This document shows, one piece after another, positions 8,526 through 32,350 of a DNA stretch of 64,000 bases. The stretch comes from Saururus chinensis. Its lineage: Eukaryota; Streptophyta; Magnoliopsida; Piperales; Saururaceae. The notes beneath the pieces are model-generated. The model had not been told where the DNA came from, searched no databases, and saw only the letters and a list, made by a program, of their open reading frames with translations. Both the position numbers and the translations under genes were made by a program. The stretch spans positions 29,320,501 to 29,384,500 of the forward strand of contig CP141146.1 of the NCBI GenBank assembly GCA_035235625.1. The letters run 5' to 3'. Position 1 is the first letter of the stretch, and each line of letters starts with the position of its first letter.

Positions 8526-8849
8526 AAGTTAAAAAAAGATTATTAGCGACGCTCGAAAATTAGCGTCGCTAATAGACCAATGTGGTGATGCTTATTCTTA
8601 AGTGTTGCCACTAATAATACTTTTAGCGACGCTCATTAACGTTGCTAATAGATATAATTTTTTTTAAAATTTAAGCTATTAGTGACGCTCGGCATAGAGT
8701 GTCACTTATAATATCCATATTAGCGACATTTAGGATTTAGCGTTGCTAATGCATTTGCTATTTGTGACGATCGTGGCCTAGTGTCCCCAATAGCTTATAT
8801 ATATTTTTTTAAAAAGATAACTATTAGCAATGCTTGTTGCGAGCGTCGC

Positions 8850-9365
8850 TAAATTCGCCACGCGGGCAAAATTACTCCCACACTGGGAAATTTCGGGCGC
8901 AGGCAAAATCTTGCCCAAGTATATCTCCCCCACCGAGCTCCCCTTCGTCACTATCTTCGACCACCGTCCTCCACTTGATCTAGTCAACGACCATCTAGCC
9001 TCTATAGCCTTCGACCACTGCTTATATTTTCGCCACTAATCTTCCCTCGTCACTACCATCAACCACCATCACTGCCTTTGACCACCATATCTCCAGCCTT
9101 CAACCACTGTCTCCAGCCTAGCTTAGACCACCGTCCTCAACTCCCCACTCTCCTCCGCCCCCTTGTTCCCCTCCTTTGTTCGGGGGAAGGGGGGGTGGGG
9201 GAGCAGGAGGGAGGAGGGGGTGGGGGGCCAGAGCGGGAACTAGAGCCCCCTACACCCCCCCCCCCCCCCAAACAGAGGAGAAGAAGCAGGGGGCAAAACC
9301 GGGGGGTGGGGTTGATGCTGGCTCATAGTAGGAGAGGGGGGACCTGGGGAGAGTGAGGGGTCCGG
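8850..9365. repeat. GC-rich middle part of CACTA 1 with G and C homopolymer runs
   Basis: The segment begins at TTCGCCACGCGGGCAAA and passes through pyrimidine-rich text into runs of G (9181-9230) and C (about 9255-9269). A reverse-complement counterpart exists in CACTA 2 at about 24020-24720. The same C-run character returns at 33128-33150 and 33247-33260 in CACTA 3, so this is part of the element, not a captured gene. The 92-codon plus-strand frame at 9078-9356 is biased composition only. Confidence 0.6.
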
Positions 9366-11199
9366 TGTAACGACCCGACCCGAGCCGGGCCCACAAAATC
9401 ACTGATAGAAAATTTTCTCTTTCCTTAATCCAGGAATCATCTTCTGAGTGCGAGAGGTACAACGTTCGTCTACGCACTACGGAGCTTTAAGGCTTCCTCG
9501 TACGTAGACTTAGGTTGTAACGAACACGTACACACAACGAAGCTTCATAGTTTGTCGCGTATAAAACAGAATAAAACATATTATTTATAATTTAATTGGA
9601 TCGGCCAATGTTGCCTTGCCGTTGGTTGCCTATGTACGTATTGGATATTATTCCAATACGATTGGATCCGAACGTAGTTCTGCCTAATGGCTACTACATA
9701 CAACAAGCATAACAAAATCATATGTATAAAATATGTATCTCCGAATATTTAATCAGAAGTATACAAAAACTCATCATATATTGGAGTCAAGCGGAAGTTA
9801 ATAAATTAACGGAATCGTACATCTCGCTCTACCACAGAGCGGGATCGAAATCAATACACTTGTCTCGCCCCTATTACTGAGTCGAGACTGAGCACATCAC
9901 CCGGCTCGCTCTATCACTAAGCTGAGACCGAACACACACACACACACACATCTCGCTCTACCCTAGAGCGAGACAACACACATCATGGCATATAAGTACA
10001 CATCAAGCATATGGATCAAAGCATAGCACACAAGTCGTTCTATAATTAAAACGGGAGATTAGAAAAGCTTACTGCCCTCATGCTTCGTAAGGTAGCTGTA
10101 TTCGGAGTTGTTCGTATGAGCATCCTCCCCTTCAGATCCGAAGATATAGACGGAGCTTCCTCTAGCCTCCATACGTTCATCGTTTTTGTGCTAAAGGACT
10201 ACGTATAAATGTTCTCCTTGCTGGGGACTTCTCATTTTCTATGCCCGTGAGCAGCGGAAAGAACCTCCCTTACTCTGGATTACTTCTCTTGATGTAGCCT
10301 GGTAACTTCGGACAGAACCCTGTCTTGCTCTGGGCCCCTATTTCTTGGTCGGTGCTCGAGGATAACGAGCAGAGCCTCTCCTTGTCTCGAGGCATTTCCT
10401 CCTTATACGGTTGCCGACTCAAAGAACGGACCTCTCCATCGCGTAGAACATACTTGATTTAGTCAAGAACACCTCTTCGATGGACTAAATCGGAGTTAGG
10501 ATGCTTAAGAACGGGGGATAAAGGAGTTTGTCGGCGCTCGGGCAGAACCTCTCCTTGTCTTGGGGCATTTCCTCCTTATACGGTCTCGGACTCAGAGAAT
10601 GGACCTCTTCATCGCGTAGAGCACACTCAATTTAGTAGGAAATGGGTCTTGAACGGCCTTAATCGGCCTCAGAACGGTCAGAAACGGGGGGAGAGAAGAT
10701 ATGGATAAAAAAAAGGAATGAAATGGGGTATAAATAGGCCCCGAGCCGCCGAAACTGAGGTGCCGCGCCGCCAAAACCGGCGGCGCCCGCGGAAACAAAC
10801 CGCGGCGCCTGCAATTGCATGGCGCGCGCACCGCCATTTCTTTTATTATTATTAAAAAATCCAAATCTTCAAACGCGCGTATCTCCCTACCCCGGATTTG
10901 GATTCGCGCGTTCTTGGTACCGTTGGACTCGTATCGATGAGTCCTTCGATACAAACCCACTTAAAGTAATAAATCGTGCTCTTACCAAGTGGGTCCTGCC
11001 TAAATTACATATTCGTCGAGGTCGTAACTTCCAGTCCCAACCTCCGTTTTACACGTTCTTCAAGTCGTTACGCTCATTTCTTCGAGCTCTACTCATATAC
11101 AAAGGTTTTAACCTACGAAACCTTCCAAAACTTATTAAAGGTTATCTAATTACCTTTAACCCCGTAGGCTAAACATAATTAGAAAAGCGAGGTGTTACA
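9366..11199 (-). repeat. 3' LTR of the nested element
   Basis: The copy begins TGTAACGACCC and ends GGTGTTACA. It has an (AC)n run at 9931-9949, a repeated phrase on CTCGCTCTACC, two copies of a block on CATTTCCTCCTTATACGG (10395 and 10566), and a TATAAATA-like box near 10727. It shares long blocks with the solo LTR at 33505-35598 in reverse orientation, for example the GTTACGACCTCG block and the CGGTACCAAGAACG block. Confidence 0.8.
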
Positions 11200-11689
11200 T
11201 TTTTCCCCCCTTAAATGAATTGCGTCCTCGCAATTCACCGAAACATACTCTTTGAAACACATCTAAGTAAAATCTGATAATTAATCGGATAAGTAATCAT
11301 AAGAAAAGTTTAATAAATCATAATCAAATAAATCATATAAAATGAATCCAATCTTAAAATTGGATAACACATTCACAAACATAATTTATGATCAGATGAA
11401 ATATCTTTGAAAGAAATCAGACTATAAATATAGAATCATATAATACAAAATTTGATACTTAATTTAGAATCGAATAAATCATCATATTGAAATTGGATAT
11501 GTCATTCAAAATTAGACATATCATTCTTTTAAAATTCAACGAATCAATCGTTCATCAAAATCTGATAAATTGTTCATAAACAAAATCCGATATTTAATTC
11601 AAAATCGAATAAATCCTTGTTCAGAAATTCTAATGTCATTCAAAATCGGACATATCGTTCTTTCAAAATTCGATAAATTAATCAGTTAA

Positions 11690-13090
11690 TCAAAATGCCG
11701 TGATACTGAACGGCTTACTTCCGCACTCATGGGGCCACGGAAGACGGAAGGATAGGAGCTTTCCCATGATGCTCCACACCTATGCGTGCCAGAACCAATT
11801 GGTTTTCTTGATGGGTATCTTTATTTAAATCCGCAATACCAAACGACTTCATCCGCACTCATGGGGCCACGGAAGATGGAAGTATAGGAGCTTTTCCATG
11901 ATGCTCCACATTGTGCAAGCCAGAGCCAAATTTGGCGGTATCCAGAATTGATAGCTTTTGGGCTTTATAGCAAATAACTATCCAGAGAGTTTGAAGACCC
12001 AAATCATCGAAATCTTCATCGTCAAATCAAATTCAGATTAAACATTTCTGAAATAACCAGATTTGAAATCGAAATTCATTTTAATACACTTGCGGAATCA
12101 ACCTTAAAGCTATCCACTAACACCTCATATCCCATATCACGGGTGTTTGATGGTTTCTTCTTAGCAATTCCACAGGTGATTGAGATAAATTTACTAAATT
12201 TCATATCATGGGATTTGAAATTAAATTTTATATCAAATCCATCAGTAGATTCAACCTGAGAGCAATCCACTAACACGTCATGTCCCATACCATGAGCGGT
12301 CCATGGTCAACCCTTGGTAATTCTACCGCCTTTGAAAACAAATCAATTTCAGAAAATAACACAAGTCTGAAAACATACGGTCACATAAATGTCATGATAC
12401 CAAATGACTTACACCCGCGCTCATGGGGCAACAGGAGACAGAAGGAAAGGAATTTACCCATGATATCCCAGTCCTGTGCGCGCCAGATGCCAAATTTGGC
12501 GGTATCCAAAATCATAATAATAATTCTTAGTTCCGAGGAACCGAGAACTATCCAAACGGCACGATTGCCCAAAACTCGGAGAAATTTTCGAAAAGAGGAG
12601 ATGATTTTAAAGTCAGAGCTTTTGTTTTCATAAAAGTAGCAGAAAACTTTTAGCAAAACTTTGGTGAGTCAAAATCTTGGTATAAATTCATACTTAGTAG
12701 GTCGAATTAAGTTCTAAGAATATGCTTCATGCACATAAGAAAATATTGTGTCATCTTTCTTTTGAAATCATTCGGAAAATCTGAAAACACGATCACAGAA
12801 TGTCGTGATACCAGACGACTTACACCCGCGCTCATGGGGCAACGGGAGACAGAAGGAAAGGAATTTACCCATGATATCCCAGTCCTGTATGTGCCAGATG
12901 CCAAATTTGGCGGTATCCAAAATCATAATAATTCTTAGTTCCGAGAAACTGAGAACTATCCAGACGGCATGATTGCCCAAAACTCGGAGAAATTTTCGAA
13001 AAGAGGAGATGATTTTAAAGTCAGAGCTTTTGTTTTCATAAAAGTAGCAAAAAACTTTTAGTAAAACTTTGGCAAGTAAAAATCTCGGCA
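11690..13090. repeat. Dispersed 120-130 bp repeats and a roughly 280-bp duplication in the LTR element interior
   Basis: A unit beginning near GATACCAAATGACTTAC and containing CGCTCATGGGG and CCAAATTTGGCGGTATCC occurs four times (about 11697, 11839, 12397 and 12808). The last two sit in a longer duplication (12390-12660 and 12805-13085) that also shares the AAACTCGGAGAAATTTTCG block. The open frames here (for example 12280-12656 and 12707-13091) are translations of these repeats and match no family I know. Confidence 0.75.
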
Positions 13091-13189
13091 TACGATTAGA
13101 ATTTAAAGCTACCTACTCCTTGGAAATTCTATTGTAGTTGAAAGCATATTTGAAATCAAATTTTATTTCAATACCTGAGTAGAATTAAC

Positions 13190-14035
13190 TGTAGGGTTTT
13201 CCACTAGCGTTACATGTCCCATACCATGAGCGGTTAGCGGTTACCTCGTGGTAATTCTATCGTCTTTGAAAACATATTTAAAAGCAAATTTTATTTCAAC
13301 ACTCAATAGAATTAACCGGACAATTTCCACTAGAGCTACATGTCCTATACCATGAGCAGTTAGCAATTACTTCGTGGTAATTCTATCGTCTTTGAAAACA
13401 TATTTCAAATCATATTTTATTTAAATACCCGAGTAGAATTAACCGTTGAGTTTTCCACTAGCGCTTCATGTCCATACCATGAGCGGTTAGCGGTTACCTT
13501 GTGGTAATTCTACCGTCTTTGAAAACATATTTCAAATCATATTTTGTTTAAATACCCGAGTAGAATTAACCGTAGGGTTTTCCACTAGCGCTACATGTCC
13601 CATACCATGAGCGGTTAGCGGTTACCTCGTGGTAATTCTACCGTCTTTGAAAACATATTTCAAATCATATTTTGTTTAAATACCCGAGTAGAATTAATCG
13701 TAGGGTCTTCCACTAGCGCTACATGTCCCATACCATGAGCGGTTAGTGGTTACCTCGTGGTAATTCGCTACCGTCTTTGAAAACATATTTCAAATCATAT
13801 TTTGTTTAAATACCCGAGTAGAATTAACCGTAGGGTTTTCCACTAGCGCTACATGTCCTATACCATGAGCGGTTAGCGGTTACCTCGTGGTAATTCTACC
13901 GTCTTTGAAAATATATTTGAAATCAAATTTTTATTTAAATACCTGAGTAGAATTTACCATAGAGTTTCCACTAGCGCTACATGTCCCATACCATGAGCGG
14001 TTGGTGGTTATGCTATGGTAAATCTACCACGGTTT
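13190..14035. repeat. Tandem array of seven units of about 127 bp
   Basis: Seven head-to-tail copies carry TACCATGAGCGGTTAGCGG, GTGGTAATTCTACC, CCCGAGTAGAATTAACCG and CACTAGCGCTACATG. The central copies are nearly identical and the edge copies more diverged, the pattern expected of unequal exchange. More distant copies lie at 12090-12310. The array is inside the interior of the LTR element 9366-15807. Confidence 0.85.
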
Positions 14036-14942
14036 AAAACACATTGAAATCGAAGTCGTTGAAAATATCTAAAAAGAATCATGTAACGAATTCAAAACAA
14101 AATTTTCGATCGAGTCGAATTCAAAATCACAATTCATAAAAATCAAGGTTTTCGATTAAATCCAAAGCCATACGAGAAAACAAAATTTCAATTCATTCTC
14201 GATGAAAAATTGAAATTTAGAGAAATTCAAATCCGTCTTAAATTCGATGCAACACATGCAGAATGAAATTCCAAATTAAATCTAAATCAATTTTTTTTTT
14301 CAAAAAGAATTTTCATATAACTCATGATTAAAAATTCGTAAAATTCATAAAATCGACTTCATATAAATTTCAATGTCACATAAACAAAATAAAAAGTTCA
14401 AAAGCAAAATTCATATTAAATCCAATAAAATAAACATGATGCAACACATTTAAACTTAAAGCTATAAATAATTTTCAATTGAAAAATATTTAAAATAACC
14501 AAATTGATGTTTGCATCAAAATTTATGCAACACATGGCGATAAAAATCTCAAATAATTCTTCAATAATAAATTAGATGCATCATATTCAATGCAAAAATT
14601 CCAAATCAATTCTAATTTAAAAATCAACATCTATAAAGTATAAGCTTGCCATCAACCAGATACACATACATAGCATAACACTTTAAAATTTCTTCAAATA
14701 AACAAATTAGAATTTATCAAAATTAGAGTTTGTGTTAAATTCGATAACACATAAGCATAACCAAAAGATGAAAAATCGAAATTTATTTGAAATCCACGAC
14801 AACACGTTCAGAAGAGAAAATTTAAAAAAATCACAATTCATTTAAAAAATAATCAGAACACATTCAAAACAGAAATCCTATTTATTTCAAAATTTAAATC
14901 AAAATACATATTAAATTAATAAAATATTATACTGTCGCAGAC

Positions 14943-14964
14943 AGATCAATGGTTCGATACCATT
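14943..14964 (-). other. Primer-binding-like site beside the right LTR
   Basis: The complement of 14951-14962 reads TGGTATCGAACC and starts two bases from the LTR edge at 14965. Plant LTR elements commonly use TGGTATCAGAGC, which pairs with initiator tRNA-Met. This site is close but not identical, so the priming tRNA is uncertain. Its position sets the element's direction as minus. Confidence 0.5.
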
Positions 14965-15807
14965 TGTAACGACCCGACCCGAGCCGGGCCCAAAAAATCA
15001 CTGATAGAAAATTTTCTCTTTCCTTAATCTAGGAATCATCGTCGTGCGAGAGGTACAACGTTTGTCTATGCACTATGGAGCTTTAAGGCTTCCTCGTACA
15101 TAGACTTAGGTTGTAACGAACATGTACACACAGCGAAGCTTCATAGTTCGTCGCGTATAAAACAGAATAAAACATATTATTTATAATTTAATTGGATCAT
15201 GCCAACGTTGCTTTGCCGTTGGTTGCCTACGTACGTATTGGATATTATTCTAATATGATCGGATCCGAACGTAGTTCTGCCTAATGGCTACTACATACAA
15301 CAAACATAACAAAATCATACGTATAAAATATGTATCTCCGAATATTTAATCGGAAGTATACAAAAACTCATCATATATCGGAGTCAAGCAGAAGTTAATA
15401 AATTAACGGAATCGTACATTTCGCTCTACCACAGAGCAGGATTGAAATCACATACACTTGTCTCGCCCCTATTACTGAGTCGAGACTGAGCACATCACCC
15501 CGGATTCGGATTTGTGCGTTCTTGGTACCGTTGGACTTGTATCGATGAGCCCTTCGATACAAACCCACTTAAAGTAATAAATCGTGCTCTTACCAAGTGG
15601 GTCCCGCCTAAATTTAACACTTGTCGAGGTCGTAACTTCCGGTCCCGACCTCCGTTTCACGCGTTCTTCGAATCGTTACGCTCGTTTCATCGAGCTCTAC
15701 TCATATACGAAGGTTTTAACCTAGGAAACCTTCCAAAACTTATTAAAGGTTATCTAATTACCTTTAACCCCGTAGGCTAAACGTAATTAGAAAAGTGGGG
15801 TGTTACA

Positions 15808-16536
15808 TCCTGATTCCAGCACTTCTCCCTAGTCCTGCCCCCCTCCCCGGTCCCCGCTGGAATCAGGCCCCCCCTCTCCTCGGTATCCCCCGAGCCAGCC
15901 ACCGGCGGTCTTTTTAATAAAAATTTGAAAGTTTTTAGCGACTTCTAAAAGCGTTGCAAAAGTCTATTTTTATTTTAAATTTTTTTGACGTATTAGTGAC
16001 ACTTTTTAAAGTGTCTCTAATACACAAAGTTCTTTTTTTAAATATATTTCATCATTAGCGGAGCTTTCCATAAGCGTCGCTAAAAACTTATATTTTTTAA
16101 AAAATTTTCTTTGCTACGTTTAAATAAGCGTTGCTAATAAGCTATTTTCTATTTTTTTTAAAAATGTTTCTTTATATTAGCTATGCTTAATAAAGCGTCG
16201 CTAATAACCAATTATTAGTGGCGCTTATAATTATCCGTTGCTAATAAGCTATTTTTTATATTTTTTAAAAATAATTTTTATATTAGATACGCTTTATTAA
16301 GCGTCGCCAATAATTGATTATTAGCGACGCTTATAATTATGCGTCACTAAAAATTTACTATTAGCGATGCTGTACTATGCGTCACAAAAGTAAAATCATT
16401 AGTGACGCATAAATAGATGTCACTAATGTTACACTATTGGCGACACTTTGTGTAAAGCGTCGCTAATAAGCATTTGCCATACTTAAAGTACTATTAGTGA
16501 CGCTTGGCGCGGCTAATAGTACTATTTGTTGTAGTG
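15808..16536. other. Right arm of CACTA 1
   Basis: After the nested LTR element, the CACTA sequence resumes with a C-rich stretch (15830-15900) and then dense subterminal repeats of the GCGTCGCTAA and TTAGCGACGC type to the TAGTG end. The same arm is recognisable at 33395-33504 and 35604-36037 in CACTA 3, which supports a single family. No gene is present. Confidence 0.8.
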
Positions 16537-16724
16537 TGATCTCCGTTCTTAGTTCATTTATAGAAACAAAAAACACCTTCTCAACTTCAAGAAGATTTGT
16601 AATTTGCTATGAAATCATGAATTGCTATTTTATCTTTATCTTTGTTGTGTAAAAAGATTTGTACTAAGCCAAAATTATATAGTAACAAAATAACAATTTT
16701 GGCATATCAGTGGTAGTTCCTTAC

Positions 16725-16838
16725 TATCGGAGACACCACATTCGAGCTGCCAAATTGGCACATTAGAGATGCTCCTGACAACAACTCTTCAATGTTTGAT
16801 CTCACATCACCATTAGGATCAATTGTTAGGATCATCTT
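16725..16838 (-). CDS. Possible host exon, unidentified
   Basis: On the minus strand a 38-codon open stretch lies between an AG acceptor (after CTTGCAAG) and a GTAAGG donor (before the TAAGGAACTACC text). The translation includes LTIDPNGDVRSNIEELL and SLMCQFGSSNVVSP. It is more protein-like than its surroundings, and the length is a multiple of three. I do not recognise the family, and it does not look like the E3 ligase exons expected here. It could be an exon of another gene, a decayed fragment or chance. Confidence 0.25.
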
Positions 16839-16862
16839 CTTGCAAGTAACCAAAGATGTCTT

Positions 16863-17626
16863 TTGCCAAGTAGAATCGAAGACTTGTTAGAAGTATGTGT
16901 AGAGTTAGGAAGACCGAATTGATATATGATTCGCTTAAAGATGAAATAGACGGTTCTTTAATGATGATATAAGAATGATCGTTCTCTTCATTGGTCATGA
17001 ATTGTAAGAAAGAAAAGCCAAAATTATCACTTAGAATATTTGAAGTTGCTTGTGCCTTGGATTTTGTTTGCTACAAGGAAACAAGAGCATTAAATTTGCA
17101 TGAAATCTGCCTCCTTCTCATTTGCCTAGGACAACCCAATATTGCTAACATTTCATTCATAGAAAAGTAAACAAATTAGGTTGACTCTGTTTTGAAGTTT
17201 TTTCAAGGATGTAAGCACTTTTTAAATGCACTGACTAGTAGAGAAAATAGTGTTCCCATTGTCAAAATTTCAAAATAAGATAACAGGCATATGAGAAAGG
17301 CAAATTTGATGAAAAAAAATGTTCTCCTTTCCTTGCAGCTAAGAAAAATCAGTGACAACCAACTTCAAATACTCTAATAAATAATAAGTTTGGCTAAAAG
17401 TAGTTCATTTTACGCAATTCACGATTAATGAAGAGAAAAGACGACTCTTCTACCATCATGAAAGAATCATCTAATCCTTCAGGCTGCATCTTCAAGTGCA
17501 CCAATAATACACCAATTGGCCCTTCTTAATTCCTTCGTGCATATCTCTTCTAAGGAAGGGTTTTTTCATGCTCCCCTCAAACAATGAGCCTGTGTAAGGT
17601 ACACATCTACGAGATTAATGACAGAC
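16863..17626. repeat. Duplicated block of about 760 bp, copy 1
   Basis: The block from GTAGAATCGAAGACTTG to the AATGAGCCT...GTAAGGTAC text is matched at 28516-29302 in the same orientation with high identity and a few small indels. Both copies lie downstream of the right end of a CACTA element (327 bp and about 440 bp away). The sequence has no terminal repeats or coding signal. It may be an older segmental duplication or an unclassified repeat. Confidence 0.75.
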
Positions 17627-18954
17627 ATGTTAACAATTCACCACTTGCGGCAGTGGTGATTCATTAATTGAATGGTTGCATTAGTCGTAGTGAAGTATGT
17701 AAATACTTTCCACGTATACAAATAATTAAGCTGATGGCATTTATGATAAGTTTAGGAAGAGTAGTGAGTTGGATATCCATAACCCAAAGCCTAAAAAATA
17801 GATAACAATTCATATTTCATTTTACCAAAGCTAGTATTCCTCTGGCACGCTTATGGACATTAACTAGACATTCTGATATTAACTTGAAGGGTGACTCTTT
17901 GCTCCCCACATTATGCAGCTGATACACACTTTGGCCTCTTTCCTCGTTCATACATAAGTGTTACAATCTGGTACTTTGAATCCATGTGCATAAAATGCAC
18001 ATCTTATAAATGCAGGCATTCCAATAGTTTTTGAGAGGATTAACACTAGTGAATTTTCGAGGAAAGATTAAGAAAAAAGATATTTCTCTAGATAATCATA
18101 GAGAAATTTTTTTACCAACAGGTAATTGCATCTATCGATTAAATCACATTATTTGAAGACTAAGCAATTAGCAAAAACTAACCAGTAGGGGTGAGGAGCA
18201 TTCTCCATGAGAATTCCTCCACCAGAAACTGCCCAATAGAAGCCAACAATCCACCAGACAAATGATGGCATTGTATTGATAGTCCCACATCGCTTGGCAA
18301 TGTTGGTGTAACGCCCGGGGTTTTTCACACATTTTCCTCAAAATTCACGAAATTTTTTTGCAATATTACGTCTATAAATCGGAGGAAAAATGACAAAATC
18401 AAAACATGATAAAACAGTTTATAATTTAAAACACTAAACATCCATTTTCCATCTAAATATTTTCATCACACGGTCAAACATCGTACGGCCAAAGCAAATA
18501 TCCTCAGGCGCTACTCGAAAACACACGTACGACTAAATTGCTATGATCATAGACTTTAAATACAAATCACTCCCAGGCATCCTTGAGTGCAAGTCCCATA
18601 ACAATCCACAGACTAATCCAAATGAAAGTCCAGAATATAAACATCTTAACGTCTCGTCTAACCCAATACATCGGATCGTGGCACAAACAAACTCGCAGTG
18701 AGTCAAGGATATACCTGATTCAACGGGAATCGATCCACTGTTAAAATGAGCATCCATCTCCAGGAGCTCTCCATCACAAACCTGCAAAAGCTCCCGAACC
18801 ACGGGGCTAAAAATGGTAGGGTGAGTATTTTCATACTCAGTAGGAAAATACCCAGTAGGGGAAATCCCAAACGGTGAACTCAAAAGTTCATAAATACATG
18901 CGTTCATGCAACTCAAACATGAAGCAGATAGGCATATCAATATCATGCTCATGC

Positions 18955-21130
18955 ACATACAAACATACCAAATGCACCATCGTGCCAAAGACATACAAAT
19001 GCACCATCGTGCCAAAGTCATACCAAAGGCACCATCGTGCCAAAATCATATCATCAAATGAAACTTACACAAACACCCTTATCCAGGGTCTTACAAACTT
19101 ACTCGTACCATCGCACGCATACTCATACAACATACGCATACTTGTACGACCTTACTCGTACAATCATATGCTCACTCATACAGCTTACACATACTTGTAC
19201 GACCTTACTCGTATAGCTTACACAAAATCACACTTACTGTCTTACTCTGAAACATACTCTCACAATCGTACTCATACACATAATCTTACAGTCGTGCTCA
19301 TACTCATACGCTTACAGTCGTACTCATACTCATATGCTTATAGTCGTTCTCATACACATACGCTTACAGTCGTGCTCACACTCATAATCGTACACATATC
19401 AACGACCACTGAAGCTCATTACAACTAATAAGCTCCAGCGTCGAAATGGAAAAGAATGCCACTGGGGCAACACCTTAACCTCCGGGGAGTGACTAGACGC
19501 TATGGACTTTTCCGAAGGTAAGGCACATCAATGCTCATGGGGCACTGGATCAAACAGGTAAGAGTAGATCCATAATACTACTTACCTGAGCGCGCAAACA
19601 TAAACACCCACACATAAGGGGTCATACAGTTGCCCACCATAATGGGTCTTATAGTGCCATAGAATCGCCCACCATAATGGGTCTTATAGTGCCATAGAAT
19701 TGCCCACCATAATGGGTCTTATAGTGCCAGTGCCACTCTTGGGCAGAAATCGTACAGTGCCACTCTTGGGCGGAAACATACAACGCTCTCAATAGAGCAT
19801 CAAATGTTTGGGTTTATACAGCACACAGACCAAATCGGAAACATACTTTGCTCTCAACAGAGCATCAGACGTCTGGGCTTCATACAGCACATAGACAAAG
19901 TCAGAAACGTACATCGCTCTCAACAGAGCATCAAATGTCTGGGCTTATACAACACGCAAACCAAATCGGAAACATACGTCGGTCTCAACAGAGCAAAAGA
20001 CGTCCGGTGCTCTACACAGCACACAGACAACATCCCGCAAGATAAACACCATGGCAAGACATGATAAATGCTCAGCCGACTCATTATCGGCTAGCTCAAA
20101 CACGGAACTTAATCCGTTGAACCCTCAGGTCTCAAACTCACAACGCTATCATTAGCTTTCTTATAATTCAAGTTTGAATTAAGTAAATTATGTGGTATAA
20201 TTATGCCACACAAACTCACAGTCCTCGACTGATCAAACCGAAGCTGAGCCTGATCGAAACCCTAGTTCGTCAGGGCAGAAGACTTCACTTAACCCGTCCA
20301 CATCATGATCACAACACATCGTACATCAACCCTTACAGTCTTACATACTTTGCCATCCCTCTTATGGCCAAATCATCTTACATTGACATCAACAAACTGA
20401 GCTCCTCAGAGCCAACCCCAGTTATCACCCTCTTACTTATACCTCACTTATTGAGCTTACTTTTCACTTCATAATTTGTACGTTATGCTTGTACAATTAT
20501 GTACACTCTTACTGTCTGATAGTCCCCCAACATACGCTCTGATACAAACCAAACAAACCGCTCCAAATCCTTGCCCGTCATACTCATATCCTCTGTCATC
20601 TGTCATACACTTACATATCCCACATCCAATCCAGATGAAGCCTCTGTCACCTCTTACTGTCCATCACCCATACCTTTGCCCACATACACTTACACATATC
20701 TAGCATAGTCAAATAGTCATCATACATACGTATGTCTATCACACATACATATAACATACACATACGGCCATACATACGCAGCTTACAACCATGCTCACTA
20801 GCCATCACTAGTGCATACATACACATTTATACATACGTCAAACATACATGCTAGCCATCACTAGCACATGCATACATATGTCAGACATACACGCTAGTCA
20901 TCACTAGCACATGCATAATCCAAACATACTTCAAACATGCACGCTAGCCATCACTAGCACATGCATACATACGTTAACATACACGCTAGCCATCACTAGT
21001 ACATACTCAATTAACATACAAAACTTACCAACAAACACGCTAGTCATCACTAGCACATACTCAATCAACATACAAAACTTACCAACAAACACGCTAGTCA
21101 TCACTAGCACATACTTACATCCAACATACT
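18955..21130. repeat. Series of short tandem arrays inside the 4.6-kb LTR
   Basis: At least five different arrays follow one another: three units with GCACCATCGTGCCAAA (18970-19050); imperfect CATACTCGTAC-type units (19090-19400); three units with CCACCATAATGGGTCTTATA (19625-19740); four units of about 60 bp with CTCTCAACAGAGCATCA (19785-20040); and seven or more units of about 38-60 bp with GCTAGCCATCACTAGCACAT (20780-21115). Opposing open frames across them simply read the repeats. Confidence 0.8.
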
Positions 21131-21269
21131 TACAGCTAACATGCATATCGTATGCATTTCAACATACCATATAATCATGCTTACATGCACATCGTGCAAT
21201 CCTAGCATGCTACTACTCATTCAAGCATGCTTTCATGAAATTACGAGTTCAAAGCTCCCCTACCTCGTA

Positions 21270-22700
21270 ATCATGACGTTTGATGGCGAGCACACGACGG
21301 TGGCGGCGTTGACGACGGAGCTGGCGGTCGAAACCGTTGCCTAGCTGAGAGAGGTGTTGTCCCGAGGATTTTAAGAAGTGCTGAAAACAATCACAGCCAA
21401 ACAAGGTGTCAGAATCAATGCAGCAAAACCCGCAATCCACGGCAGCACACTAGGGCGGTCGGGAGAAAAGTCAAGCCAACACATGTGGCGGTGCGACCAG
21501 AAGTCGATAGTGTACACACTGAAGGTCGGCCGACAGCTGAGAAGTCCTCGGCTGGCCACAAGACATTGAAATCGGCCGTGAACATCACCCAACGGCTGCG
21601 ATTTTGCGTCACAAGGGCCCACATAAGGGCGGAGGGTATGGGGCGACACTCGAGGATAGAAAAGAGGTGGAGGAGGGCTATGTGTCAACTCCACTCGGTG
21701 GCAAAGCCAACCGATGGTCAGGCGGCACAAATACGGCGCCTAAACCCAAAAATGCACGCGTGGCCACATGCGCACGCGGCCAAAAAGTGCCACTCTTAGG
21801 GGAGATGGGTCGGACAGTGGCGACCCAAGGCCCACATAAGGGCGGTTGAGCTAAGGCCAAGACATGGTGGCCGATTGAAGCGGCGACATCACCGATCGCC
21901 ACCCACAACTAACACATTTGGTGCGGGTAACTGTGCATCTTGCATGGTATAGGGTAGGGCAAGCGGCCCTTTCCGAGCGGAGTGTATAATCGGGCCAATT
22001 GGGGCTTTCCCTCACTGTCGCTGAGCCGGGGCAGAGCCCACAATGGCCAAATGGCCGACGGCTCGCCGATGGCCAAGACCCGAGACGCACCCAAAGCGTC
22101 TAATCAGGCGGAGCAAGGCAATAGGGGCAAAGCGGGGTTGGAAACGGCAACCCCCTACCAACACTGGGTCAAGGTAGGCTGGACGGAGTCCTACCGGTGG
22201 CCGGGTGACGACCGGAAACACCGGCGTCTAAAAAAAATCTCACGGACAGTGAGATGAAAATAGTGATAAAAACCTGACCAAAAGACCGGCAGCTCACAGC
22301 GGAGCGCAGAAAGCACGGCGGCGGCTCTAGCCAGCGCCTATGGGTTCCTAGCGGCCAACTAAACATAAGTCTAGTTGAGAGCGGCCGCAAACGACGTCAA
22401 AATCGTACACCCACAGCTCAAAAACGGGATTGAAGGAGAGAAAAAACCCAAAAAAGGTTTGGTACCTTGTGGAGGAGCGAAGAGGCCATGGCGGCGGTCA
22501 TAGCCGGTGTCTACGGACTCGTGGCGGTGAGGCAAAGCAAATCCGGACAAGAACCGCCGGAATCCAATGACGGAGGAGGGAGAACGGAGCGACCAGAATC
22601 GAGCTCGGGGTTCTCCAAAATGTTACTGGACGTGAATTCTTACTGGAACCGAAATGTCGGTTCTGGAATCCGATGAATGATATATATAGTTAATCTTTTT
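21270..22700. other. GC-rich segment of the 4.6-kb LTR without a recognisable gene
   Basis: G+C is much higher than in the flanks and several frames stay open on both strands, for example 22467-22676 plus. None resembles a known protein, and the frames overlap on both strands, typical of GC-rich non-coding DNA. Phrases such as GGCCCACATAAGGGCGG repeat (21609 and 21829). In the minus direction this would be the U3 or promoter side of the LTR. Confidence 0.4.
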
Positions 22701-22979
22701 AATTTTTACATCCACATCCCTCATACGCGTTCACCTCCCAGTTACGCGTTGTACCTCCAAAATTTGCGCCGTAAGCGCGCAGTGAGGCCCACGGCCTGCG
22801 ACTAAGCCCCACACCCGACTCTACGGGTATAAATACGGAGAAAAATACATAAATATGAATACGCCGAAGCATCACATTTTCCCGCCGAAAATGACCAGAA
22901 AAATAGCAGGAAAAATCACAGAAAATCGTAGAAAATTCAGAGACATTACAGTTGGCCACACATAAAGAATCATTTAACA

Positions 22980-23421
22980 CTTAACAGAAAAAATATTTTC
23001 ATATTAATGACCAACAAAAGATCAACAAATAGATGTAACAACGAGACATGAAATTTATTAGATTATAGAGTTGTTACCAAAAGAAGATGAAAACAAACAC
23101 AAAATGAAATAAATGTTCACAAACATAAGGTTGGCCTAGCCAGCAACAATATTCAGTATCAATTGCACCTTCAGTACTACCTCCCATTAATAGCAACCAT
23201 AATGACTCATCTGATTTCATATTCTTGGACCTCAGATTTTAAGTACAACTAATGAGAATAGTTTAAGATCTATATCAGAAGTTTTTGTTCCAACTTAAGA
23301 GTGTTGCATAACATCATTTTGAGAAAATAAGAGTTGAATAGTACTATAGAATATGTGTTATCGGGGACAGATATATGGGATAGCAATACATGAAACTGAT
23401 TAGTAAAATGCTAAAACCATA
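22980..23421 (-). other. Intron-like DNA upstream of the E3 ligase exon
   Basis: AT-rich, apparently low-copy sequence lies between the exon acceptor at 22979-22981 and the CACTA 2 insertion. No exon of the ligase family (the N-terminal membrane segments) was recognised. The ACA target triplet of CACTA 2 is at 23422-23424. Confidence 0.4.
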
Positions 23422-24019
23422 ACACACTACAACAAAAATGACTATTAGTGACGCATTTAGTGAATAGTACTATAGAATACTATGCGTCGTTAATAGTATT
23501 GTAAAAATCACTAATGACTATTAGTGACGTATACTAAACGTCGCTATAAGTGTCAAAAAAAGTGCCATCGCTATTGCCCATTAGCAACGTATAAAACAAG
23601 TGTTGCTAATAAAGCGTATTAGCGACGTATAACTATATGTCGATAATAATAACTTATTAGCGACGTATATTCTATAGCGTCGCTAATGATAAGCTATTAG
23701 CGACGCTTTATTTACGTTGCTAATAGAAAAATAATTTTTAAAATTTTTTTTTTAAAAAAAATAGTAGCGACGTATATACCTAAACGTCGCTAATAATTAT
23801 TATTAGCGACATAAAATATACGTCGCTAATATAAAAAAAATAAAAAAATAAAAAAATTAACCCATTAGCGACGCTTTTTTATACGTCACTAATAAAATAA
23901 ATTTTTTTAAAAATTAAAATTATATCAAAATTAAATAAAAAATATTGTTATTTAAAAAATAATAATAAATAGCGACGCTTAAAAAGCGTCGCTAATAATA
24001 AAATTTTTAAAAAAAAATC

Positions 24020-24720
24020 CCCAATGGGCGGGGGGGGGGGGGGAGAAGGTGGATGGGGTGGGAGGGCGGCGGGCCGGGGGCGGATGGCGGCCGGGGCGAG
24101 AGGCGAAGGAGGCCTGCGGGAGGAGGGGGAAAGTGGGGTCTGAAGAAAGGGGAGGGGGAGCGGGGGGCGGGGCGGGGGCCGGGGGGGGGAAGGGCGGAGG
24201 ACGGCGGGGCGGCACGGCCACGGCGAGTTGCGGCGGAACCCGGCGGTGTGGTACATGTGGAGGGGGAGGAGAAGAGGGGAGAAGGGGGACCGGGAGAGGG
24301 TGGGGGGGGCGCGGAGAACGGCAGGGCACGGGCGGAGGGCGGCGGGAGATGCGGAGGTGATAGAGCGTCAGGGCGGCACGGCTGCGCAGCGGAGCTGCAG
24401 GGCGAAGCAACAAGGCAGGGGGAGAAGGGGGACCGGGAGGGGGTGAGGGAGCGGAGCACGGTAGGGGACGGGCGGAGGGCAGGGGGGGCGGAGCTGCAGG
24501 GCAGAGGAACAAGGCGGCGAAGGCCGACGGGGCAGTCCTGTGGAGGGGGGAGGAGAAGGGGAACGGGCTGAGGGTGGCGGAGGCAACTGTGCGGCGGGGC
24601 GGCACAGCTGAGTGACGGCGGGCAGCTGGCGACGAGCAAAGGCCGGGTGATTTATAAGCCACGTGGCGAAATTTCGCCCGCGCGGGTAAATTCCCGCATG
24701 GCAAACTTTCGCTATTTGAA
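24020..24720. repeat. G-rich low-complexity core of CACTA 2
   Basis: Long runs of G and GGC/GGAG-type text on the plus strand end in CCACGTGGCGAAATTTCGC and CATGGCAAACTTTCGC. The last phrase is the reverse-complement counterpart of the TTCGCCACGCGGGCAAA text in CACTA 1 (8861). Overlapping frames on both strands are open because stop codons are GC-poor. No domain is present. Confidence 0.6.
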
Positions 24721-24889
24721 TTCGGCGACGTATTGTTTAATACATTACTTTTAGCGCCGTATTGATTAATATGTCGCTAAATACACCATTTATAGCGACG
24801 CTTTGGATTGGTACGTCGCTATAAGCAAAACATTTAGCGATGTTCATTACAGTACGTCGCTAAAACAATTTTTTTATTATTTAAAAATA

Positions 24890-27410
24890 TATTCTCTCTC
24901 TCTCTTCCCTCCCCTATCCTCTCTTTTCTCTCTCTCTTCCCTCTCCTTCCTGCTCCTCTCTCTCCTCCCTCTCTCCACCCTTTCTCTCTCCTCTCTCTCT
25001 TCCCTCCCCCTCTCCTCTCTCTCCCCTCTCTTCCTCTCTCTCTCTCTACCCTCTCCTCCCTCCCCCTCTGTCGCTTGATCTCCCTCTCTCTCCACCCTTT
25101 CTCTCTCCACTCTTTCTCTTAATCCCTTCCCTATCCTCTCTCTCTTCCCTCTCTTCTCTCTCTCCCCTCTCTTCCTCTCTCTCTACCCTCTCCTCCCTCC
25201 CCCCTCTCTCTTGATCTCCCTCTCTCTCCCCGCTCTCTCTCCTCCGTCTCTCTCCCACTCTCTCTTCTCCCTCTCTCTCTAAATCCTCCTCTCTCTCTTC
25301 TCTCTCTTCCCCTCCCTCACTCCACCCTCTTCTCTCTCCTCTCCTCTCTCCTCCCTCCCCCCTCTCTCTTCCCCCTCCCTCACTTCACCCTTTCTCTCTC
25401 CTCCCTCTCTCTCTTCCCTATTGTCTCACTCTCTCTCCTCTATTTTCAAATTTTAAAATTTTTTATTAATTAAAATTAATTTTAAAATCTAAAAAAAAAT
25501 TAAATAAAAATACTAATAGCGACGTATAGCTATATACATCGCTATTAGTATATGTAGTAGCGATGTATACCCATATACGTCGCTACTCTATGTACTAATA
25601 GCGACATATAGTCGTATATGTCGCTATTAGTATTTTTATTTTCTTTATTTTAAAAATAAAAAAAATTAATAAAATTTTTTAAAAAGTCAAAATAAAATTC
25701 TTCTCTCTTCCCTCCTCTCTCTCTCTCTCTCTCTCTCTTTCCTCTCCCCTCTCTCTCTTCCCTCCCCTCTCTCTCTCTTTCTTCCCTCCCCTCTCCTCTC
25801 TCCACCCTCTTCTCTCTCCTCTCTCTCTCTCTCTCCTACTTCCCCTCTCTCTGTCCTACCTCCCCTCTCTCTCTTCCCCTCCCTCACTTCACCCCTCTCT
25901 CTCCCCTCTAATTTCAAATTTTAAAGATTTTTTATTATTTCAAATTAATTTTAAAAATAAAAAATAATTAAATAAAAATACTCCCCCAGCGAGTTGAAGT
26001 TATTCCCGCTACCCTGAGGACGTATAGCTCTATACGTCGCTATTAATATTTTATTTTCTTTATTTTAAAGATAAAAAAATAATAAAAATTTAAAAAAGTC
26101 AAAATAAAATTCTTCTCTCTTCCCTCCCCTCTCTCTCTCTTCCCTATTGTCTCACTCTCTCTCTCCTCTAATTTCAAATTTTAATAATTTTTTATTATTT
26201 AAAATTAATTTTAAAAAATAAAAAAAGAATTAAACAAAAATACTAATAGCGACGTATAGAAATATACGTCGCTATTAGTATTTTATTTTAATTATTTTTT
26301 TATTTTAAAAAATAAAAAAAATTAATAAAAAATTTAAAAAAATCAAAATAAAATTCTCTCACCCTCCCTCTCTTCCCTCCCTCTCTTCCCTCTCTCTTCC
26401 CTCCCATATCCCCTCTCTCTCCCCTCCCCTCTCCCCTCTCTCCCCTCTCCTCTCTCCTCCCCCTCTCTCCCTCACCTCTCTTTCCCTCCCTCGCTCTCTC
26501 TCTCCCCGCTCTCCTCTAATTTCAATTTTTTATAATTTTTATTTTTTTATTTAAAAATTAAAAAAATTAATAAAAAATTTTAAAAAATAAAAAATACAAT
26601 TCTTCTCCCCCTCTCCTCTTCCCTCCCTCCCCTCCCCTCTCCTCTCTCTCTCTCTCCTCCCTCTCCTCTCTCTCCTCCCTCACCTCCTCTCTCTCCTCCC
26701 TCTCTCTCCCTCTCCTCTCTCTCCCCGCTCTCCTCTCTCCTCTAATTTTAATTTTTTATATTTTTTTATTTTTAAAAATTAATTTTGAAAATAAAAAAAT
26801 AAATACTAATAGCGACGTATAGAAATATACGTCATTAGTAATACAGGTATTAGCGATGTATATATTTATACGTCGCTAATACATGTACTAATAGTGACAT
26901 ATTCCTATACGTCGCTATTAGTATTTTATTTTAATTATTTTTTATTTTAAAAAAATAAAAAAAATTAATAAAAAATTTTAAAAAATCAAAATAAAATTCC
27001 TCTCACCGTCCCTCTCTTCCCTCCCCTATCCTCTCTATCTCTCTCTCTCTCCCTCTCCTCTCTTTCTCTCTCTCTCTCCCTCTCCTCTCTTTCTCCCCTC
27101 GATCTCCTCTCTTTTCCTCTCTCTTTCAATACGTTGCTAATAGTATTGAGTTTATTTTTTTTATTTTTAAAATAAAATAATTTATAAAAAAATCTTTAAA
27201 AAATAAAAATTATATAATATACCACTCCCCTTTCTCTCCTCTCCCTCTCATCTATCTCTCCCCTCTCCTCTCTTTCCCTCTCCTCTCTCTCTCTCTCTCT
27301 CTCTATCTCCTCTCTCTCTCTGTCTCTCTTCTAACCCCTCTCTCTCTCCTCTCCCTTTCCTCTCTCTTCTATCCCCTCTCCCTTTCCTCTCCCTCTCCTC
27401 TCTCTTTTAT
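24890..27410. repeat. Pyrimidine (CT) tract array with hairpin modules in CACTA 2
   Basis: CT-rich tracts at about 24893-25440, 25700-25910, 26110-26170, 26354-26515, 26603-26745, 26998-27125 and 27220-27405 are separated by AT-rich modules. Several modules contain near-perfect hairpins on TAGCGACGTATA / TATACGTCGCTA (for example 25515-25650, 26239-26282 and 26810-26930). This is the reverse-strand equivalent of the 4800-8525 array. Confidence 0.8.
26239..26282. repeat. Perfect 20-bp stem hairpin with a 4-base loop
   Basis: The left arm AATACTAATAGCGACGTATA (26239-26258) is exactly complementary to 26263-26282, with GAAA as the loop. It is the most perfect of the module hairpins in this element. 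Such stems can form cruciforms, or fold-back RNA if transcribed. Confidence 0.8.
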
Positions 27411-28076
27411 TTTATTAAATAAAATTAATTAATAAATCTATTCGCGACGCTTATAATTAACCGTTGCTATTACAAATACAATTTACAATGCTTATTTAAA
27501 GAGGATAAAGAGGAGAGAGAGGGGAGAGGGACATTAAATATTATAAAATTTTTAAGATTTTTTTATAAATTATTTTAAAAATAAAAAATAAAATAAATAC
27601 TATTAGCGACGTATGGCATATACGTCGCTAATAGTACAGGTATTAGTGACATATAGAACTATACGTCGCTAGTAATTTTATTTTTTTGTTTTAAATTAAT
27701 AAGTAATATGAGGACTATTAGTGACACTTGTGTAAACGTCGCTAATAGTCTTATTATTAGCGATGCTAGTTACAAGCGTCGCTAATAGTTGGACTATTAA
27801 GCGTCGCTATTATTTATGATTTTTTTCTTTTTTTAATTAAAAATTATATATTTTAGCGACATTTTTGTAAAGCGTCGTTAATATCATTAGTATTAGCGAC
27901 GCTTTATGTTAAGCATCGCTAATACATAACTATTAGCAATGCATAAGAATATGCGTCGCTAATAGTTCATTTTTTTGCGACGTAGCTTTATGCGTCGCAA
28001 GTATAGGTTTTTAGCGACGCTTATAGTTACGTTGCTAATAAATGCGTTGCTAATACCCAGTTTTGTTGTGGTGACA

Positions 28077-29771
28077 ATACTAGTAAGGCTTACTTGACAT
28101 CAGTTCCGAACAAATTAAAAACTTAATTACACCAACAATAGACTATAATAGAAGCAAAATGCACAATGCACCACAACATTCCATCGTAATGCTATAAAAA
28201 TAGCTTATGTTGTGAAAAGATATCCATTAGGATAACAAGTTCCATCTATTGGAATTGGTTTATGTAGCCATTTAAAAATAGATGTACTTACTCTAGATAC
28301 ATTATTCAACATAAGTTTGTTTTCACCAAACAATTGTAAACAACCTCTTTTCATATATCAAGTGTCCTACCAACTTTTGGTCAAAAAATTGGTGCCTTAC
28401 CGAGTTAAAATGAAATAACTACAATTTCGAACATCGTAGAAGCAAAATAAAGAAGTCCAAAAATTAAATTGAATCTATTCCAATTTTAACCAATGATACT
28501 AAAAAAACGACATGATGCCAGGTAGAATCGAAGACTTGTTAGAAGTATGTGTGGAGTTAGGAAGACCCAATTGATATATGATTCGCCTAAAGATGAAATA
28601 GACGGTTCTTTAATGATGATATAAGAATGATCGTTCTCTTCATTGGTCATGAATTGCAAGAATGAACCTCTTTCATGCCAAAATTATCACTTAAAATATT
28701 TGAAGTTGTTTATGCCTCTGATTTTGTTTGCTACAAGGAAACAAGAGCATCAAATTTGCATGAAATCTGCCCCCTTCTCATTTGCCTAGGACAACCCAAT
28801 CTTGTTATCATTTCATTCATAGAAAAGTAAACAAATTAGGTTGACTATGCTTTGAAGTTTTTTCAAAGTTGCAAGCGTTTTTTAAATGCACTAACGAGTA
28901 GAGAAAATAGTTTTCCCATTGTAAAAAATTCAAAATAAGATAATAGGCATATGAGAAAGACAGATTTGATGAAAACATGATGTTCTCCTTTCCTTGCAGC
29001 TAAGAAAAATCAGTGACACAACCAGCTTCAAATACTCTAATAAATGATAAGCTTGGCTAAAAGTAGTTCATTTTATGCAATTCACGATTAATGAAGAGAA
29101 AAGATGACTCTTATACCATCATGAAAGAACCATCTAATCCTTCAGGCTTCATCTTCAAGTGCACCAATAATACACCAATTGGCCATTCTTAATTCCTTCA
29201 TGCATATCTTTTCCAAGGAAATGTTTTTCTTGCTCGCCTCTTACAATGAGCCTAGTGTAAGGTACGGATCGCAGTTGTTCATCTACGAGATTAATGACAC
29301 ACATACTAATGATTTAAAATATCAATGCCTCTCTCATGCATTGAAAAACTCTTCCCTATTCTAACTAGGGCCTTTTGGCTAAACTCTACATTAATAAATT
29401 CTCCCTCTTAAAATTTTAAAAATCTCCTTAATCTAAATTGAATTAAAACTAGTTTGCAAAAAAACAAGAGGAAATACAACATGTACTACTAAATAATGGA
29501 AATAATAAATAAATTAATAATTGCGTGTGCTTTAAACTAGACAGTGAACTCTGGAGATGGTAGTAATGAATCAGATCAAGTTATGTTGATTATGAGCTAT
29601 GCACAATAGTTGCTATGCATGAACATTTTCAATCAGCTTGATGTATATCATGTAAGCTATTTTCATTCCATAGATGATTATGAAAAAACTGACCTAAAGT
29701 ACACTGTGACCTTCGAAAACTTTCCGACGTGGAGCCTATAATCAAATAATGTTTTAATGACCTAAAAATAA
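28077..29771. other. Low-copy intron-like DNA right of CACTA 2
   Basis: No gene model is supported. It contains the second copy of the 760-bp duplicated block (28516-29302). The 61-codon frame at 29179-29364 starts inside that block and matches nothing I know. Confidence 0.35.
28516..29302. repeat. Duplicated block of about 760 bp, copy 2
   Basis: Same sequence and orientation as 16863-17626. Shared markers include GTAGAATCGAAGACTTG, GATGAAATAGACGGTTC, GCCTAGGACAACCCAAT and ATCTACGAGATTAATGACA. Copy 2 has a few extra bases, for example GGATCGCAGTTGTTC near its right end. The flanking sequences differ on both sides. Confidence 0.75.
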
Positions 29772-29773
29772 TA

Positions 29774-29969
29774 CTCCCTCCGTCTCATATTAGTAGCTAT
29801 ATTTTAAAATTTGTGATTTTTAATAAATAGTAAAAATCATATTTAAGAAAAGACAAAATAAGTTTATGATAATCTTTCTTAAGTACCCAACTATCTAAAT
29901 TAAACAAAATAAAACTATTAATATAGAACAAGCTTTTTTGCCAAGAGATATTAAATTAAGATGAGGGAA
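29774..29969. mobile_element. Stowaway MITE (Tc1/mariner), about 196 bp
   Basis: The element starts CTCCCTCCGTCTCATATTAG, the usual Stowaway terminus, and ends with a degenerate inverted copy (GATGAGGGAA). TA dinucleotides flank it (29772-29773 and 29970-29971). The interior is AT-rich and non-coding, as expected. The right terminus has diverged, so it is old. Confidence 0.85.
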
Positions 29970-30355
29970 TATTGAATACAGACCGGATCACCGAGGATTG
30001 AAGAATCAATTATTCATTTTAATCAACTTTGTCTATGTAAAGCAGTCATTGTTACTGAAAATTTTTTAAGTGACAATAATTGAGAAAGAGTTCTATTCTT
30101 GCAGAACTCCCCAAATTACCTTCTATAGGTTATTACTGCCTTTTGGCCGGCAATTGTTTACCTGGGAGAATGAATTAAGAAAAGGCAGTTTCTGTGATAA
30201 AGATGGAGAAGAGAGACAAAACAGCCCTTGAGACGGGGTTTTAAGATGTGGGTGATTAGGCACAACAACAACCAAATACAACATGATTATACCAAATACA
30301 ACTTGATTATACTATCGTAGTAATTAATGTTGCATGAAGAGTCCAGTAATTAGAT

Positions 30356-30712
30356 TCAAGAAACCGAAAAGCAAACCAAGAACACCACTTGCGGCGGTGG
30401 AACAGGCGGAGCCACTCCACTCACTCCCAACTCCTCCCGACTTCGCTCCTCCGCCGCCCTCTCTATCGCCTCGTACTCTCGTAGTCGACTTTGCTCCAGC
30501 GCTGGCGCTCCTCCTCTTGGGCCTTCTGGGTGGCCTTGCGCTTGCTGCTGCACTTTCCCCGGCGGTCGAGCTTTGCTCGGAGGCAGGCGTCGTTCGGATC
30601 GACGGCTGGCTTTGCCCTTGAAGATCTGGTAGAGAATTTCCAAAGAACCGATCAAAACACTCCTTAGAAGATGGTAACCATCCTTTATATAGACTCCTCT
30701 TCCGAACTTCAC
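30356..30712 (-). CDS. GC-rich putative first exon of an unidentified host gene
   Basis: A sharp GC rise at 30380-30615 follows a minus-strand TATATAAA box at 30692-30699. Two minus-strand frames are open. One runs the full 118 codons (30356-30712). The other (30463-30612) has 49 codons with strong G/C third positions, including KPAVDPNDACLRAKL and KATQKAQEEERQRWSKVDYE, a basic, charged, coiled-coil-like peptide. I recognise neither. The second frame has no ATG before an upstream stop, so it would need an unseen splice or a different start. The opposite strand has a hydrophobic frame (30334-30621), which I regard as a shadow. Confidence 0.35.
   Translation of the reverse strand: MKFGRGVYIKDGYHLLRSVLIGSLEILYQIFKGKASRRSERRLPPSKARPPGKVQQQAQGHPEGPRGGAPALEQSRLREYEAIERAAEERSREELGVSGVAPPVPPPQVVFLVCFSVS
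30692..30699 (-). promoter_or_regulatory. TATA box for the minus-strand GC-rich exon
   Basis: The complement reads TATATAAA, placed about 30 bp before the region that becomes GC-rich on the minus strand. The position and strand fit a core promoter. Without transcript data it remains a motif call. Confidence 0.4.
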
Positions 30713-30789
30713 AAAGTGGGTCTTTTCAATTCAGGAAATCGCCCTCCCTATTATGGGGAAAGTTTCCTCATATTGATTACGGAAGGTCT

Positions 30790-32350
30790 CTAATTTTGAA
30801 ACGGGAAAGTCGGCTTGTTCGTCCCAGAAAAGCTTTTCAATTTAGGAAAGTTCGATCTTGTGGTGCATCTCACATTCGTGTTCAGCTTGGGAAAGTCGGT
30901 GTTTTAAATTCGGAAAGGTTCTTCTTGACTGAAACTGAGTTATGGACTTATGGGCCGTTAAGAATTACAGTTTTACAGTTTTTTAGCTATACAAGGAGAT
31001 CAGTTGGCGAATGCAGCAAGCGCCGCCTCTGCGATGACTTGCATGCTCTTACGATGTGATTAGTTTGAGGTGTTTTTTTGTTAAAAAAAAGGAAGTTTCC
31101 TTGTGCGGTTTCTTGGTTCTGGTTCGTGTTCAAGAAAACCTTTTCAATTTGTAGGTCTGAATGTGTCTCCTCTGTTTTTAAATTTTGTTATCTGAAATGT
31201 CCTTTTGATTAGATACGAAATGTGGGTTTTACTATCATGTATTAAATCTCCATTTTTAAAAACTATTTTGTTTTGGTGATGGATTAATGGATTGGCAGCG
31301 ATTGGTGAATGGGTTGAGTAACATGGAGGGATTGCGATTGGTAATTCTTTAACAAACAATTACATTTAGCTATTTTTGGCACACATTTCTTCCCAGTGCC
31401 ATTAGTTTCTATATCTTGTATCACAGCTTTTCTGCTTTGGATTCTAACATGTTTTACAACTGTTCTATGCGTTTCAGCGACTTTGATTCACTGCTTACTT
31501 TCAGTTATGCATTTGACCGATTTTTAACTTTAATTGTCCATTTGTTTGAGTTTATGTGGGGAATTCGCATAAATATTTGTGGGATTGGTGGATTTTTTTT
31601 ATATATTTTGGTAACAGGATTGATGAATTTCGGTAGTGTTAACATTTTTAAAATATGTGCTTTTTGTTTATTGGTTTGGATTGATAAATACTTCTGAGGA
31701 TTTATAAATTTCCGAATCCTCTGTGTCATAGGATATTGCGTATGTCTGGGTTCATAATTAAGTTTTACGGAGATGTGGTAATTATATAGAAGCGAGATAC
31801 AGTATTATAAGATTAGCAAATTAAAAAATGCCTCCCTCCTCTGTCTTTTGGGTTGCTCTATGTGTTTGTTTTTATAAACTTGTTGCTTCTGATTCATATG
31901 ATGAAGCAATTATCTTATTGTCCGTTTTTTTTTTCTGTTTCATATTGTATGAACTGGTTTCCTGATTTTACTCATTGGGTCAGTATTATGCCAAATCCTG
32001 TTTAATGGTTCTTTTAGGAAATTTGTATGCATTAGAATCATGGGTGATTGTTTGAATATGGATGATAATAGGAAATTGGCTTCAGAATTCAACAAAAGAT
32101 GTTCAGATAATAGTGTGAACATTGATTTAGGTGATAAAATCCCTCTCCCCCTCTCACATTACTATGTCTCTTTGGCCTTTGGACATAGAGCTCTACATTT
32201 GGACTTGGTTAGACTCAAAACAAGAATTTGTTACTAATGTGTGTCCAAGCTTCTGCCTGGTGGATTTATTTATGAGAAAACTAATCATCTTCGTAGTTGC
32301 TTGGGTGCAAAAGCCATATCTGACTACTGCTATCTAGTTTTCTGCTTTGT
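30790..32350 (+). CDS. Possible plus-strand host gene start (5' UTR intron and first coding exon), unidentified
   Basis: The layout resembles a plant gene with an intron in its 5' UTR: a mixed-composition leader (30790-31050), a T-rich intron-like stretch (31060-32010), then an acceptor-like TTCTTTTAG followed by an ATG at 32040. The first peptide begins MGDCLNMDDNRKLASEFNKR, and a donor-like GGTGATAA occurs near 32131. A second coding-like stretch near 32250-32330 contains LLPGGFIYEKTNHLRS and CLGAKAISDY in one frame. I cannot name the protein. Further exons were not found before the chromovirus fragment at 32690. It could be a truncated gene. Confidence 0.35.

Follow-up and report, generated by a model that had tools for sequence, protein, structure and literature searches.

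Retrotransposon and solo-LTR insertions into genes are a well-known source of alleles in plants. In the susceptible allele A9709 of Crr1a from Brassica rapa, the cited passages describe a probable solo LTR of 357 bp, with a target-site duplication, that interrupts exon 1 of a fully known resistance gene, whose protein is predicted to be truncated (PMC3559844). For TORE1 at the F3H gene of Torenia, the passages cited describe a retrotransposon with 560-bp LTRs and a 5-bp duplication, as well as a solo LTR that arose from it; the site is upstream of the gene, and a promoter effect was tested there (PMC4234012). For the Del (Tekay) group of Ty3/gypsy elements, the portions cited give LTR lengths of 1,143–4,831 bp; the U3 end met most often in maize and sorghum is TGTAACACCC, and positions −8 to −10 of the U5 end read GGG in type A and TTC in type B (PMC4029996). 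The Arabidopsis proteins At1g12760 and At1g63170 are listed, in the passages cited, as H2-type RING proteins (PMC4641371).

In the 64-kb stretch of Saururus chinensis DNA analysed here as a whole (hereafter designated the window), a 4,644-bp insert, best read as a solo LTR, interrupts an exon-like piece of 148 nt whose predicted peptide resembles, as judged from provisional family sequences, the Arabidopsis At1g12760-type membrane RING-H2 ligases. The locus is similar to Crr1a A9709 in having a probable solo LTR with a target-site duplication inside an exon, and differs from it in the length of the LTR and in that the gene as a whole is unseen; with the Torenia case it shares the 5-bp duplication and the solo LTR at a host gene, whereas the insertion here is within an exon. 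In contrast to the Arabidopsis RING-H2 proteins, a single exon is all that was found here, and no RING domain was found in the window. The account that we consider reasonably probable is that of a solo LTR inserted into a RING-ligase exon, in a copy that is stranded and non-functional or, less likely, belongs to a gene with long introns.

Boundaries and identity of the insert

The insert (18307–22950, 4,644 bp, TGTAAC...ATTACA) starts with TGTAACGCCC and ends with GACATTACA, and comparison of the flanks revealed a perfect GTTGG on each side, at 18302–18306 and 22951–22955. Both the TG...CA ends and the target-site duplication of 4–6 bp that characterize a solo LTR are therefore present. A direct-repeat search of 18000–23500 detected no second terminal repeat in the insert; its ends share only a 23-nt match of 83% identity (family D15), and the other direct repeats in this segment are tandem arrays within the insert and short matches. 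Since a complete element has two LTRs and no long direct repeat joins the ends of the insert, we favour a solo LTR and reject a complete two-LTR element. The longest stop-to-stop frame listed for the insert has 189 residues. The sequence-only reading had described a 4.6-kb LTR flanked by GTTGG, a description that holds and is here refined to a solo LTR.

The boundaries of the insert exceed chance, given the duplication, the TG...CA ends, and relatives in the window that start at LTR positions 1 and 3. The right end is defined by the duplication and the ATTACA terminus, no relative reaching that far; TATAAATA on the plus strand begins 123 bp from it.

As to its lineage, the insert is likely, though not proved, to be a Ty3/gypsy element of the Del/Tekay-like type, judging from its length, which falls inside the range reported for Del/Tekay LTRs in the passages cited, and from its start, which agrees with the Del U3 end at 9 of 10 letters on the plus strand as against 6 of 10 on the minus strand (PMC4029996). 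The plus orientation would be favoured by this U3-end match; at the place of the GGG of type A U5 ends, however, the insert has AGA when read on the plus orientation and GGG on the minus (PMC4029996). The comparison with Del/Tekay is that of a lone LTR, which would carry no coding region, whether reverse transcriptase, integrase or chromodomain, for phylogenetic placement.

Relatives of the LTR and its relative age

Alignment of the insert to the rest of the window, with E values up to 1e-3, gave 10 rows at three places, representing three decayed LTR relatives of 64–76% identity, none of which is demonstrably a paired LTR. One relative of LTR positions 1–2423 lies at 49283–51377 on the plus strand (main pieces, 65% and 71% identity), another of LTR positions 3–1907 at 55380–56963 on the minus strand (main pieces, 64% and 76%), and fragments related to LTR positions 17–302 and 2712–2958 are found at 48033–48747 on the plus strand. 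Because the former two start, at 49283 and 56963, with LTR positions 1 and 3, the left boundary of the insert is supported independently of the duplication.

A single LTR by itself gives no date. The CpG observed/expected ratio is 0.91 for the whole insert and 0.82 for LTR positions 1–2423, the stretch aligned with the relatives; two of these relatives have ratios of 0.52 and 0.37, and the adjoining segment 16537–18306 has 0.39. The higher ratio merely hints that the relatives are older than the insert, because the window as a whole has a ratio of 0.71 and CpG islands are reported, in the passages cited, for some Del LTRs (PMC4029996).

Structure of the interrupted exon

When the flanks are joined on the minus strand and a single GTTGG is retained (22979–22956 plus 18306–18183), they form the 148-nt exon-like piece, bordered by an acceptor ending ...ttttttctgttaag and the donor CTACTG/GTTAGT, with AG and GT at the respective borders. 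The longer, 3′ part (18183–18306, minus strand, 124 nt) codes NIAKRCGTINTMPSFVWWIVGFYWAVSGGGILMENAPHPY plus two bases of the next codon and ends at this donor, and the shorter, 5′ part (22956–22979, minus strand, 24 nt, or 29 nt with the second GTTGG) follows the acceptor ...TTCTGTTAAG. In one of its three frames the joined piece is free of stops and encodes LNDSLCVANIAKRCGTINTMPSFVWWIVGFYWAVSGGGILMENAPHPY; the other two contain stops. The insert and the duplication together amount to 4,649 bp, a length indivisible by three, and the exon frame meets four stops within the last ~390 nt of the insert; read-through of the occupied exon is thus excluded.

These results bear out the earlier description of a stop-free exon with splice sites that look usable. 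The youth of the insertion relative to loss of function, which had been argued from the intact frame, is not supported by it, since 148 nt is too short: this frame stayed open in 186 of 2,000 dinucleotide shuffles, and any one frame did so in 515 of 2,000. The open frame alone is not above chance, and the intact frame constitutes weak evidence.

Likeness of the exon to membrane RING-H2 ligases

The family queries were provisional blocks of protein sequence, drawn up after the exon had been seen, so that the match is biased. We take one of these blocks to represent the At1g12760/At1g63170 type and another to represent an unnamed type close to it; the transmembrane block of the former presumably reads NTM..F.WWI.GFYW...GG.....P..YW. 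By tblastn, the exon matched the two blocks with 53.5 bits (E 3e-12; 46.5% identity over 43 residues) and 68.6 bits (E 1e-17; 62.5% over 40 residues), while the best matches of the same two queries in 20 shuffled windows were 26.9 and 26.2 bits. The predicted protein likeness exceeds chance, as measured against these provisional blocks only, and the exon peptide appears to resemble the At1g12760 type. Where the exon reads PHPYW, the usual sequence in the family is PRLYW, and this replacement may hint at relaxed constraint. The transmembrane block of At1g12760/At1g63170 to which the exon is likened is the provisional one, not being displayed in the passages cited (PMC4641371).

Pfam returned no family for the 61-residue frame containing the exon, and PDB, a collection that is no plant proteome, returned two chains for the exon, both with E above 2. 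Among prokaryote genome contigs, none of 72 pattern matches was confirmed, the first entry of query alignment A2, used for confirmation, being a provisional family block and not the exon; among viral contigs, none of 36 was confirmed with the same query. A literature text search for four peptide strings retrieved no paper containing any of them. None of these sources is a plant proteome, and for this reason their blanks say little. Collectively, the resemblance of the exon to a plant membrane RING-ligase group, claimed from the sequence alone, is supported by the likeness to the provisional blocks, whereas the designation of the peptide as diagnostic for that group is not, in view of the Pfam result.

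Search for further exons in the window

The C-terminal RING-H2 domain of the At1g12760-type ligases was not found in the window: a RING pattern, which a RING domain split by an intron would escape, gave no match in the six frames of the 64 kb. The window (to E 10) and 20 shuffled windows were further searched by tblastn with the exon and four provisional family blocks as queries. Away from the exon, the provisional post-exon block reached at best 23.1 bits (shuffle maximum, 26.2) and the provisional RING block 19.6 bits (shuffle maximum, 24.3), and altogether three of the four blocks, as well as the exon query, remained below the best shuffle in the window. The provisional N-terminal block gave 25.8 bits (E 0.004; shuffle maximum, 23.1) at 20804–20745 on the minus strand; since this position falls within the insert, where its tandem repeats begin or end, the match was rejected as a host exon and taken as composition. 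With neither a RING domain nor a neighbouring exon found in the window, the whole host gene that the sequence-only reading had presupposed is not in evidence there.

The exon lies in a host segment of ~2.2 kb (16537–18306 plus 22951–23424) between two long elements, at 3970–16536 (element 1; ends CACTATAAC and TTGTTGTAGTG) and 23425–36037 (element 2; ends CACTACAAC and TTGTTGTAGTG), both with TTAGCGACG-type subterminal repeats. We take these to be CACTA-like; a matching 3-bp target duplication is absent at both. That a CACTA element captured the exon is rejected for now, because the exon is located between the two and not within either. If the gene exists, it needs an intron of over ~18 kb on the downstream side of the exon and one of over ~41 kb on the upstream side.

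Several other features of the window were observed. A repeat of ~765 bp at 16864–17628, within the host segment and ~0.6 kb from the exon, has a 90% identical copy at 28516–29304 inside element 2; it contains an internal inverted repeat of 73% identity, with arms of 181 and 189 bp, and shows no clear target duplication. Two TGTAACGACCC...GTTACA units at 9366–11200 and 14965–15808, 92–94% identical and the left one split by ~1 kb, look like the two LTRs of a further element that inserted into element 1. Long arrays, GA-rich at 4806–8522 and TC-rich at 24893–27410, are interleaved with the TTAGCGACG-type repeats in the CACTA-like elements, and tandem arrays occur at 13138–14010 (128-bp unit, 6.8 copies) and 34307–34786 (56-bp unit, 8.6 copies). 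Just after element 2, an exon-like stretch of 22 codons on the plus strand (36305–36370), KYVGRSNVEDEVEKLTQSMFRQ, is followed by GTAAAA; its 22-residue peptide had no PDB match. A unit resembling a short-LTR retroelement lies at 42779–46071 between direct repeats of 81% identity; pieces of a reverse transcriptase are encoded on its minus strand (Pfam RVT_1, 43078–43461 and 43465–44121). Scans of the window with Rfam and for tRNA (ARAGORN with the bacterial code) yielded nothing.

Origin of the interrupted exon and alternative explanations

We infer that a long-LTR retrotransposon, probably a Ty3/gypsy element of the Del/Tekay-like type, entered a copy of a plant membrane RING-ligase gene within its 148-nt transmembrane exon, where GTTGG was duplicated, and that recombination between its LTRs would then have deleted the internal part, leaving one LTR of 4,644 bp. 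The occupied exon cannot be read through, so that the copy would yield no normal protein by way of it. As the 64 kb yielded no further exon of the gene, this copy most likely represents a stranded fragment that had already lost its function and, less likely, one exon of a gene with introns of over ~18 and ~41 kb; the missing neighbours may reflect long introns alone.

The intact splice borders and frame would also be expected of a gene that had lost its function only recently. The corresponding explanation, that the LTR recently knocked out a live RING-ligase gene whose very long introns are filled with transposons, is possible but the less probable of the two; it is the knockout allele proposed earlier, and it overlaps the long-intron branch of the preferred account. 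Introns enlarged by transposons are reported from grapevine (PMC3058033), and the CpG ratio of LTR positions 1–2423, when set against the two relatives, is the hint of youth noted above. On the other hand, no other exon of the family was detected with the provisional blocks, either downstream (~18 kb) or upstream (~41 kb), and the survival of the frame across 148 nt counts for little. The conserved motif PRLYW moreover appears as PHPYW in the exon.

An unlikely explanation is that the insertion was intronic, the true acceptor being AAG/CGATG with the first exon base at 18292 and the LTR immediately preceding this acceptor. A stop-free exon of 110 nt (lead 0) does follow an AG there. It gives, however, a phase different from that of the original exon, and in the empty site it lacks a T-rich tract, which TTTTTTCTGTTAAG before 22979 possesses; of the residues encoded before this AG, one (K) alone is shared with a provisional family block, so that homology hardly decides.

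Splicing out or exonisation of the LTR would be possible in principle through a single in-phase acceptor, a candidate cryptic AG within the LTR at 18337–18338 (minus strand). Toleration of the LTR by splicing at this AG, which we regard as improbable, would make the first exon base 18336 and the exon 154 nt long, that is, six nucleotides longer, in frame (phase 1 in, phase 2 out), and free of stops; yet such a site is unremarkable, since 802 of 2,000 shuffled versions of the final 400 LTR nucleotides contained at least one, the preceding stretch gcaaaaaaatttcgtgaattttgag is pyrimidine-poor, and ten codons would have to stand in for eight native ones. That a live RING-ligase gene is putatively exonised through this acceptor, ~30 nt inside the LTR, is the least probable of all and highly doubtful.

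Significance

The insertion is of an ordinary kind, a solo LTR within an exon already having a published precedent. The preferred account, a solo LTR in a RING-ligase exon of a probably stranded copy, would gain importance only if the copy were functional and polymorphic, or if the acceptor borne by the LTR were used. If the latter exonisation were true, ten partly LTR-coded codons would replace eight native ones before the transmembrane helix, despite an insertion of 4.6 kb.
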